Part shown: positions 1,151-37,258 of the stretch, in pieces | Numbering within the stretch: the first letter of the stretch is position 1 | How the letters are laid out: every line of letters begins with the position of its first letter | Origin: a virus | DNA length: 37,258 nucleotides | Strand: one strand, 5' to 3' | Virus record (IMG/VR): IMGVR_UViG_3300005854_000008 | Span: 1 to 37,258 of that record | The notes under the pieces: generated by a model | Told to the model about the DNA's origin: nothing | Databases searched by the model: none | The model's input: the letters and a program-made list of their open reading frames with translations, nothing else | Program-made: the position numbers and the translations under genes

Positions 1151-1306
1151 ATGCCTGAGAAGCTTGATCGTTGTGTGCGAAAAGTGATGCGTAAGGGATA
1201 TACCAAGCAGGAAGCATATGCGATATGAGCAAAGTCTACTGGCTGGGTCAGGGGACCTGGCGGTAGATGGATAAATAAAAAAGCAAAAAAGAGGAAGAAG
1301 AAATGA
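1151..1306 (+). CDS. 51-residue protein with in-frame UGA (candidate selenoprotein), copy 1
   Basis: Starting at ATG 1151 behind GGGGGTG, the frame reads 25 codons ending in AYAI, then TGA at 1226-1228. It continues open for 25 more codons (AKSTGWVRGPGGRW, then a Lys/Arg-rich tail) and stops at TGA 1304-1306, which overlaps the ATG of the next gene (ATGA). The second copy at 37129 has the same UGA. The three base differences between the copies lie before the UGA and are all synonymous; the shared bases after it are identical. From memory, small phage proteins with an AYAIC or NPYAVC motif carry Cys at this position, so UGA would read as Sec or, less likely, Cys or Trp. Cys8 could pair with residue 26. 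UGA serves as an ordinary stop elsewhere in the genome (for example 9861-9863), so recoding would be local. A short 25-residue product or a decaying gene cannot be ruled out. Function unknown. Confidence 0.6.
1235..1267 (+). promoter_or_regulatory. SECIS-like hairpin just after the in-frame UGA
   Basis: Six bases after the UGA the RNA can fold into a 33-nt hairpin. Outer stem: 1235-1239 with 1263-1267 (UCUAC/GUAGA), then U1240-G1262. G1241 is bulged. Inner stem: 1242-1249 with 1254-1261, eight pairs including two G-U. The apical loop is AGGG (1250-1253). Bacterial SECIS elements lie directly after the Sec UGA inside the coding region; as I recall, the loop begins roughly 16-37 nt downstream and has a G in its first two positions. 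This hairpin meets both. Folding was done by hand. Confidence 0.55.
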
Positions 1307-29834: not shown

Positions 29835-29850
29835 AATAATACGTATTATT
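29835..29850. repeat. Perfect 16-bp palindrome
   Basis: AATAATACGTATTATT is a perfect palindrome centred on CG, between the TAAACCC repeats and the large inverted repeat. A dimeric regulator could bind it. Confidence 0.5.
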
Positions 29851-29871
29851 AATTTGTAATTCGTAGCACGA

Positions 29872-30066
29872 TTAGAATTGTTATTAATTTAGAATAATTC
29901 TAAGGAAGGTGAGTTAATGAAAAATGATTTTTCGAGAAAATTTTTTTTTAGAAAAACCCTTGTTAACATTTGTTAACGACCCTTGTAAAAAATTTTTTTA
30001 TAGCCGATTTTCATTTTTCATTAACTCACCGACTTTAGAATAATTCTAAATTAAAAATCATTCTAA
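29872..30066. repeat. 56-bp inverted repeat with two 7-1-7 palindromes
   Basis: Left arm 29872-29927 and right arm 30011-30066 match in reverse at 50 of 56 positions by hand, around an 83-base centre holding two GTTAAC sites (29962 and 29972) and runs of A and T. Each arm contains TTAGAATAATTCTAA (29889-29903 and 30035-30049), a 7-1-7 palindrome with the layout of Fur/PerR boxes, and at its outer end the related TTAGAATTGTT-like word 17 bases away. Each arm also carries GGTGAGTTAATGAAAAATGA facing inward; on the left this opens a 19-codon frame (29917-29976). No target duplication flanks it. Confidence 0.75.
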
Positions 30067-30233
30067 CATACATCCATCCCTGCTAAGTCTCGTCAGTCAA
30101 GCCTCACAAGCCACGCCATTTCTTTCTATTCTTGATTAATTTATAGATTTTTATTTTTTTCAATTTATAAACTATTCAATATTGAACTTTTCATTCGTAA
30201 TCCGTTAACAATTTTGTTTAATTTTCGATAAAT

Positions 30234-30327
30234 CGATAAGTATCGTTGTTTATAAATTTAAAAGTTTATTTCTTTACTAAACAAATTTGTTTATAAATTT
30301 ACTTGTTTACTTAACGATAAGCGTTAA
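30234..30327. repeat. Paired small palindromes with CGATAAG core
   Basis: CGATAAGTATCG (30234-30245) and TTAACGATAAGCGTTAA (30311-30327) are short palindromes sharing CGATAAG, separated by AT-rich sequence containing two copies of TTGTTTATAAATTTA (30246 and 30288). The stretch could be a melting or initiator-binding element beside the 17-bp array. Confidence 0.45.
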
Positions 30328-30369
30328 GTTTTGTGATAAATAAATAAATTTATCGATTTTTCAACAATT

Positions 30370-30743
30370 GGTTAGAATTGTTTTAAGTTGCGAATTGTTT
30401 CAAGGTTAGAATTGTTTTAAGTTACGGACTGTTACAAGGTTAAAATTGTTTTGAATTACGAATCAATGTGGGGTTAAAATTGTTTTAAATTACGAATTGT
30501 TGCAAGATCAAAATTGTTTCGGGCTACAAAAAGATTTCAGTTCGGAATTTTTTTGATTTACGAATTGATTTGGGTTTGGAATGATTTGTAAGTCGGTATA
30601 TTTGTAAATTTATAAATTATTTAAGGAAAAAATGGTTTGGTAGTTGAAAAGATTGTTAGATTGTAAAAATTTTAAATTGATAGGCGATTTGGTTTCAAAA
30701 TGGTTTGTGGGTTAGAATTGTTTTAAATTAAGAACCGTTTTGT
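30370..30743. repeat. Array of 22 in-phase 17-bp repeats (putative origin iterons)
   Basis: The consensus GGTTAGAATTGTTTTAA recurs every 17 bp, with odd units closer to it and even units reading GTTACGAATTGTTNCAA, so a 34-bp period is also seen. Best copies start at 30370, 30404, 30438, 30472 and 30710. The copy at 30710 lies exactly 340 bp after the first; units from 30608 to 30709 are degenerate (about 9-11 matches of 17). The same motif is present at both ends of the 56-bp inverted repeat. Tandem binding sites in a gene-free region beside the early promoters fit a replication origin. Confidence 0.75.
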
Positions 30744-30759
30744 TTTGAAAATTTTTGCA

Positions 30760-30838
30760 GGGTCGGATTGTGAAAAGCCCCAGAGGGGGTCGGCGCCCCT
30801 CGTGGCTAGTTCACCCAGGGGGTCGGGGTATGGGGTCA
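30760..30838. other. GC-rich patch with repeated GGGGTCGG
   Basis: In otherwise very AT-rich DNA, GGGTCGG occurs at 30760, 30787 and 30820 and GGGTC at 30833. GAGGGG (30783-30788) pairs with CCCCTC (30796-30801) around a 7-base loop, and the end has three G-runs within 18 bases. It is just upstream of the methyltransferase promoter. It may be a protein-binding site, a structured origin element or a packaging-related site. Confidence 0.5.
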
Positions 30839-35838: not shown

Positions 35839-36684
35839 ATGCCGTATACAAAAAATCCGATAGTTTATCCAAGTGGTTTTGTAAGTGTTGATGTGGCGAA
35901 AGTTAATGAGAATTTTTCAATTTTAGCAGATGCTTTTGTAAATGATGACCCGACAACTGGAATAGTAAAAAATGCTGACACTGTAGATGGTTTTCATGCA
36001 AGTCACACTCCAGCTCCGAATACGATAGTGCCTCTTAATGCAAATGGAATTTTAGATTTGAGTGCGAGTTATGTGAGGAGTAATGTTTATACCTTTAGAA
36101 GAGTTGATTTAACAGAGGCGACAAGTGATTATGAGTTGCAAGTTGGAGAGGAGGCGTATTATATTTGGAATACGGTTTCAAGATTAACTCTTCCATTGAG
36201 GATACGTGTAAGTGGGATTTTATATCAATTAATTGTTGTTGCTCCAAGAAGTTCAGGGTTTATAAATTTAGAGCTGTTTCCTAATAATACTTCTTATACG
36301 AATGCTTTTGAAAGATATAGTATGTATCCAAGTTCTATTGGATATTTAACAGGAGCATGGCTTGGTTATTCTTATGATGATGGATATTATTTAGTAACAT
36401 CTTCTGGATCTTCTAATGTTTTTGTTTGGGAAAGAGCTGTTCAACATAGAATTTTATATCCTTCTATTATTGGTGGAGGGATGCTAATTTCGTGTTTACA
36501 AACAATGAGACAAAATAAAGGAGAGATGCACTATGCGATGATACATGCTTCGTCAAATTATCCTAGGTATATACAAGGAACTAATAGGTGGAATGATATT
36601 GCGGTGGATTGGATATCGTTAGGAAGTTTAGTAGCGTCTGCACAGAATGGAACTATTACAGTTTTTGTTAGGAGGTTAGCATAA
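35839..36684 (+). CDS. Tail fibre protein, copy 2 (complete)
   Basis: A 281-residue fibre. The N-terminal ~100 residues are nearly identical to copy 1 and include NADTVDGFHAS then TPAPNTIVPL, probably the shaft that attaches to the virion. The rest is diverged, rich in Ser, Tyr and Gly, and would bind the host receptor. It ends in RRLA and overlaps the chaperone start (TAATG). GAGGGAG precedes the start. Confidence 0.8.
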   Translation: MPYTKNPIVYPSGFVSVDVAKVNENFSILADAFVNDDPTTGIVKNADTVDGFHASHTPAPNTIVPLNANGILDLSASYVRSNVYTFRRVDLTEATSDYELQVGEEAYYIWNTVSRLTLPLRIRVSGILYQLIVVAPRSSGFINLELFPNNTSYTNAFERYSMYPSSIGYLTGAWLGYSYDDGYYLVTSSGSSNVFVWERAVQHRILYPSIIGGGMLISCLQTMRQNKGEMHYAMIHASSNYPRYIQGTNRWNDIAVDWISLGSLVASAQNGTITVFVRRLA

Positions 36685-37115
36685 TGAAGGTATGGGCATA
36701 TATACATCCAGAACTTAATATTCTTTGTTGTGCTTTATTGAAAGAAAGTGTGCCAGAAGGAGTTCAAGCGGTAGAACTTGAGGTAGAAAATCCTGATGAT
36801 GTTGTGCTTGATAATGGGCGAATTAGGTTAAAGACAGAAGCGGAGAAGGTTGTAGAAGAAAAGCAGAAAAAACTTGCAGAACTGAAGAATTATGTAGCGA
36901 ATTTACTTGCCCCGACTGATTATGTGATTACGAAGATAACTGAAGCTCAAATACAGAATGATATTGAGGAAGTCAAAATGTTAAGACAGAAATATGCAGT
37001 GCAATTGCAAAGGAGGGAAGCAATAAGACAATGGAATGAGCAGATGAAGCAAACGATAAAAAATGCAACAAGTTTGGAAGAATTGAGAAAGATAGTGATT
37101 GAATTTAGAGATTAG
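36684..37115 (+). CDS. Tail fibre assembly chaperone-like protein, copy 2
   Basis: A 143-residue paralogue of the protein at 706-1137, with substitutions spread along its length, mostly conservative. Shares LLAPTDYVITKI and REAIRQWNEQMKQ. AGGAGG lies just before the start. Probably folds or attaches the fibre encoded just upstream, which would explain why the pair was duplicated together. Confidence 0.65.
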   Translation: MKVWAYIHPELNILCCALLKESVPEGVQAVELEVENPDDVVLDNGRIRLKTEAEKVVEEKQKKLAELKNYVANLLAPTDYVITKITEAQIQNDIEEVKMLRQKYAVQLQRREAIRQWNEQMKQTIKNATSLEELRKIVIEFRD

Positions 37116-37128
37116 GGGGTGTTGTTAA

Positions 37129-37258
37129 ATGCCTGAGAAGCTTGATCGTTGTGTGCGAAAAGTGATGCGAAAAGGCTATACCAAGCAGGAAGCATATGCG
37201 ATATGAGCAAAGTCTACTGGCTGGGTCAGGGGACCTGGCGGTAGATGGATAAATAAAA
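37129..37258 (+). CDS. 51-residue protein with in-frame UGA, copy 2 (cut by window end)
   Basis: The same frame as at 1151: 25 codons, TGA at 37204-37206, then 17 complete codons before the window stops. It differs from copy 1 at three bases, all before the UGA and all synonymous; the last 82 bases are identical. The downstream hairpin is at 37213-37245. Having the UGA and frame in both copies argues against a sequencing error or a fresh mutation. Confidence 0.6.

Follow-up and report, generated by a model that had tools for sequence, protein, structure and literature searches.

We find that a 51-codon gene of an uncultivated hot-spring phage genome very probably encodes a selenoprotein, in which an in-frame UGA at codon 26 would be read as selenocysteine (Sec). 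The window, that is, the whole stretch of DNA that was analysed, comprises 37,258 bases with 35.5% GC. Judged from sequence comparison, UGA and Cys exchange at codon 26 among relatives, the RNA just downstream has the geometry of a bacterial SECIS (bSECIS) hairpin, this hairpin is under selection specifically in the UGA forms, and coding is conserved on both sides of the UGA. An earlier note had proposed that the host SelB machinery reads this codon as Sec, and the exchange, the bSECIS fit and the UGA-specific selection strongly support it. The decoding by host Sec machinery is what we infer.

A short gene with an in-frame UGA

The features on which the argument turns are these:

1151–1306, + strand: predicted selenoprotein gene, 51 codons, MPEKLDRCVRKVMRKGYTKQEAYAI-U-AKSTGWVRGPGGRWINKKAKKRKKK, stop UGA; assigned from Cys/UGA homologues at codon 26
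1226–1228, + strand: codon 26, an in-frame UGA predicted to encode Sec; 7 contigs carry the UGA, and the remaining homologues have Cys
1234–1268, + strand: bSECIS-type hairpin, stem 1234–1249 / 1254–1268, bulged G at 1242, apical loop AGGG at 1250–1253

In the window, positions 1151–1306 read MPEKLDRCVRKVMRKGYTKQEAYAI-UGA-AKSTGWVRGPGGRWINKKAKKRKKK-UGA. The letters bear out the earlier description of a UGA at codon 26 followed by 25 more codons up to a UGA that overlaps the next ATG: the terminal TGA lies at 1304–1306 and the ATG of the next gene at 1303. UGA ends 7 of the 47 likely genes of the window (TAA 29, TAG 11), fewer than the "many" claimed before; the count still speaks against a changed code, and genome-wide reassignment of UGA was rejected on this ground.

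The gene occurs a second time near the other end of the contig:

37129–37258, + strand: second, truncated gene copy that retains UGA and hairpin; from sequence comparison, probably this locus in another strain

Comparing the copies agreed with what had been reported of them, namely a retained UGA, three synonymous changes and 82 unchanged terminal bases. They differ only at gene bases 42, 45 and 48 (codons 14–16, all synonymous), and the final 82 bases are identical. Both copies sit in contig ends of about 1.35 kb that are ~88% identical to each other, and near-complete relatives have one copy each. Probably, then, the second copy is this locus in a variant from the population, lying at the ends of a genome that is circularly permuted or redundant. 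We therefore rejected it as an independent gene or as independent evidence. The overlap at ~88% identity runs between 1–1280 and 35907–37258, with a non-matching stretch within the tail-fibre gene; the contig may have been assembled from two strain variants of a genome that is circularly permuted or redundant, or else the tail-fibre module may be duplicated.

Cysteine or UGA at codon 26

A protein search of 2.9 million viral contigs returned 21 relatives, and searching by pattern for the UGA form gave six contigs, of which two had come up in the protein search as well. Counting the window, UGA stands at codon 26 in seven contigs from five metagenomes, including Yellowstone Washburn (YNP-WB) and Lower Culex Basin (YNP-LCB-003), spring names that are read from the metagenome codes (PMC9723716). 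A profile search gave 80 loci: five known UGA forms and 75 with Cys at that site (a motif count gave 70, inspection by eye the other 5). No homologue ending at codon 26 or carrying a residue other than Cys or UGA was seen among those found, so that the tabulation (75 Cys homologues, 7 UGA contigs) came out as predicted. Cys8 is invariant in a 16-row alignment. Downstream of the UGA, AKSTGWVRG.GG.W is kept in seven diverged genomes and is near-identical to the Cys forms.

The gene family had no match in Rfam, Pfam or PHROGs, nor did the gene match any of the annotated phage records. A six-frame scan for UGA/Cys exchange returned many antisense shadows, and filtering left this family as the sole credible unanimous exchange. 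Two further scans gave spurious matches: GTDB genomes yielded two to the UGA form, both by chance and in unrelated sequence, and a search of viral contigs for a thioredoxin-type WCGPU motif yielded one, which was false.

The hairpin and the bSECIS model

Folding of the window RNA gave a hairpin of 15 pairs with one bulged G, at -20.1 kcal/mol (z -4.4), and none of 200 dinucleotide shuffles was as stable. The hairpin with a single bulge and an AGGG loop is thus present as the earlier note had it, with 15 pairs in the folded model instead of the 14 given there. Published bSECIS constraints are a loop of 3–9 nt, an upper stem of 4–16 bp, a minimum free energy of at most -7.5 kcal/mol, a G within the first two loop positions and a UGA-to-loop distance of 16–37 nt (PMC13188914). 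The window hairpin lies within all of these bounds: its loop is AGGG, its uninterrupted upper stem has 7 bp, the loop starts 21 nt downstream of the UGA, and the energy is that given above. The hairpin test proposed earlier thus came out as predicted.

The conserved core of the hairpin comprises 11 pairs; two of the lower pairs are lost in many sequences. Six pairs vary on one side only with pairing kept (G-C/G-U or A-U/G-U); no two-sided, doubly compensating change was seen among the compared sequences. The minimum-energy fold of one UGA form (L025/L040) is a different structure.

Selection on the RNA in the UGA forms

We scored synonymous divergence as the fraction of same-residue codon pairs that differ synonymously. 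In the UGA forms it was 0.11 at codons 30–38, under the hairpin, versus 0.39 elsewhere (permutation p 0.003); in four close Cys forms it was 0.31 and 0.30, respectively. We also compared each gene with 1000 recoded versions of the same peptide drawn from the phage's own codon usage. For each of the seven UGA forms at most 2 of the 1000 synonymous recodings folded as stably, and by the same null five Cys forms without the motif folded no better than chance. Among 2.9 million IMG/VR viral contigs, the hairpin motif GGNTGGGTCAGGGGAYCYGGCGGTA is limited to six UGA contigs and one Cys form, L005. A covariance model scored the UGA forms at 80–86 bits, L005 at 77.5 and other Cys forms at 36.5 at most; since the model was built from the seven UGA forms, these match by construction, and the informative part is the gap to the Cys forms. 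As read from these alignments and folds, RNA-level selection keeps the hairpin in the UGA forms only.

Probable switching between UGA and Cys

The exceptional Cys form, L005 (6001–6147), has UGU at codon 26 next to a whole, intact SECIS-like hairpin, and has probably reverted from Sec to Cys only recently, leaving a fossil SECIS behind. Leftover SECIS elements are known in Cys homologues such as Mannheimia FdhA and a Desulfitobacterium HesB-like protein (PMC1794560). L005 likewise keeps its hairpin beside a Cys codon, and differs from those cases in being a phage gene (PMC1794560).

Among closely related phages the site alternates between UGA and Cys, and one sample (3300005860) holds both forms, L003 with UGA and L063 with Cys. 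In a tree of three downstream lysis-region proteins from twelve close relatives the UGA forms were not grouped. The best tree needs five UGA/Cys changes; its support is low, which leaves some room for a single origin of the UGA form. Repeated UGA/Cys switching, or recombination, is likely on this pattern.

Other readings of the UGA

A stop codon followed by a hairpin, with the frame continuing intact, is also the anatomy of programmed readthrough signals. In that case a near-cognate tRNA would decode the UGA with the hairpin as stimulator and place Trp, Cys or some other residue at position 26, and the gene would also yield a short form of 25 residues. The homologues, however, always have Cys at the site and never Trp or Arg, the hairpin fits the bSECIS model down to the loop G and the 21-nt spacing, and the UGA itself is kept in 7 of 7 contigs, neither UAG nor UAA being seen at codon 26 among the homologues found. 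We regard readthrough as improbable.

Cys in the homologues would itself be expected if the UGA were read as Cys, through a reassigned code or a tRNA-Cys with a UCA anticodon, and UGA-reading Cys tRNAs do occur in some bacteria. Against this stand the use of UGA as terminator in the 7 of 47 genes noted above, the finding of no other unanimous sense-frame UGA/Cys exchange among the genes of the examined phage loci, and the failure to find tRNA genes in the window or in the loci of 14 relatives; moreover, a UGA-specific hairpin would be purposeless. Such a reading is very unlikely. That the UGA is a true stop or a disabling mutation, leaving a pseudogene or a 25-residue peptide, we give hardly any chance: the standard code indeed gives no ORF across the UGA, but the frame stays open beyond it with the downstream motif kept in seven diverged genomes, and a pseudogene would not preserve both hairpin and protein.

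The reading as Sec would work as follows. During infection a host ribosome would reach the UGA at codon 26, and the hairpin, its loop 21 nt downstream, would recruit host SelB with Sec-tRNA(Sec). Selenocysteine would then be inserted at the site where most relatives have Cys, and translation would run on to the next UGA to give a 51-residue protein.

The phage and its likely host

A search of 15 phage records returned no tRNA-Sec above the family cut-off, and no selB was seen in the window. With no phage tRNA-Sec found, the host must supply the Sec machinery. The window matches Conch37, the "Aquificae Conch Spring virus", in length (37,258 bp) and GC content (35.5%), a match of size and composition rather than of letters (PMC7689252, Table 2). 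Conch37 is an uncultivated genome from Conch Spring, Yellowstone, of the proposed genus "Pyrovirus" (PMC7689252), and the agreement in both figures with this published member places the window in that genus. Its terminase and PolA are 44% and 34% identical, respectively, to those of a 41,208-bp contig (L008) that we take, from its length, to be the phage GBS41. The non-coding region at 29850–30760, between divergent gene blocks, contains 17/34-bp repeats and a 56-nt inverted repeat, and is a probable replication origin; repeats in this intergenic region were also noted for Conch37 (PMC7689252).

GBS41 has CRISPR matches in Thermocrinis jamiesonii, and Conch37 matches no CRISPR spacer of the tested Aquificae (PMC7689252), so that the host of Conch37 has to be deduced from its relatives. 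tRNA-Sec is present in Aquifex, Hydrogenivirga, Hydrogenobacter, Thermocrinis ruber and T. albus, and is absent from Hydrogenobaculum, the exception among the Aquificaceae examined, and from Sulfurihydrogenibium (PMC4227106). A Sec-proficient member of the Aquificaceae such as Thermocrinis is thus the likely host, its sel genes being deduced from the published tRNA-Sec survey. The survey and the CRISPR link of GBS41 make this step likely rather than established, given that no spacer matches Conch37.

Genomic context and predicted role

Two of the genes downstream of the UGA gene are these:

1303–1578, + strand: downstream gene, 91 aa, one membrane segment and a coiled coil, holin-like; it begins within the last bases of the UGA gene
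1790–2413, + strand: probable lytic transglycosylase, 207 aa, lysis cassette; family assigned indirectly

The first is called holin-like from its position and features, and a Pfam search with the 207-aa protein gave no match. In 12 of 12 close relatives the UGA/Cys gene lies immediately 5' of the holin-like gene and the probable lytic transglycosylase.

An AlphaFold2 model of the UGA-gene product (pLDDT 87.5) has helices at residues 3–14 and 19–30, which suggests a two-helix hairpin, and ends in a basic tail after a short pair of strands. PDB sequence and fold searches returned no convincing relative. From the helix positions, rather than from inspected coordinates, Cys8 and Sec26 should face each other across the helical hairpin, and these invariant chalcogen positions may form a selenenylsulfide or redox pair.

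Three distant phage proteins (L112, L117 and L124) carry the N-terminal motif ...LxxCV...AYAIC (codons 1–30) in fusion with DUF2213, and in L113 the motif is weakly joined to a Mu-like prophage I protease domain. Because the gene just precedes lysis genes and its N-terminal domain is fused elsewhere to prohead-protease-like proteins, a late function is probable for the protein, either in virion assembly or in lysis, and the fusions point to head assembly as an additional role. Our tentative suggestion is a small late protein that is selenenylsulfide-stabilised or redox-sensitive.

The small ...LxxCV...AYAIC domain is itself widespread in phages and has two conserved Cys; no Pfam entry was found for it. 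In another phage group (L086, L092 and L096–L102) it is followed by a region that resembles a nucleotidyltransferase and that reads ...TGSMSNFNYTDYSDLDVHLLLD... in the relative L012.

Comparison with known systems

We found no phage selenoprotein in a literature search that covered 5.39 million open papers. Phages and viruses likewise go unmentioned in a 2026 review of prokaryotic selenoproteomes, and the word "selenocysteine" does not occur in the text of the Conch37 paper (PMC7689252). As UGA is annotated as a stop in phage genomes, phage selenoproteins would go unseen. We think it likely that this is the first bacteriophage selenoprotein family: phage-specific, apparently non-enzymatic and about 50 residues long, with Sec/Cys switching, a SECIS that tracks the UGA, and only Sec-making hosts. 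A virus would here be taking advantage of a host trait that is costly and patchily distributed, and the prediction is that UGA-form phages are confined to Sec-proficient Aquificaceae. The closely similar genes offer a natural Sec/Cys exchange series for asking why Sec is used, and some 50 residues with a single hairpin make an easy test substrate.

The closest comparison is within the family. A 44-aa protein of the "Pyrovirus" GBS41 (L008), probably BFVD A0A823A9C6 from its length and identity, has the same motif, ...AYAICSTSTGW, and a matching predicted fold (TM 0.76–0.87); it carries Cys where the window has the predicted Sec, and no hairpin. As in bacterial bSECIS selenoprotein genes (formate dehydrogenase, glutaredoxin-like and DsrE-like), the UGA aligns with Cys, and the hairpin lies just downstream of it inside the coding region, within the 16–37 nt spacing (PMC13188914). 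Unlike bacterial selenoproteins, the product is phage-encoded, only about 50 residues long, adjoins lysis genes and has no known redox fold or enzyme family. The known viral selenoproteins are the glutathione peroxidases of the poxviruses molluscum contagiosum and fowlpox, likewise virus-encoded and dependent on host Sec machinery (PMC8310308). Those, however, are captured host enzymes of eukaryotic viruses with a eukaryotic SECIS, whereas here a bacterial-type SECIS would serve a phage-specific family.
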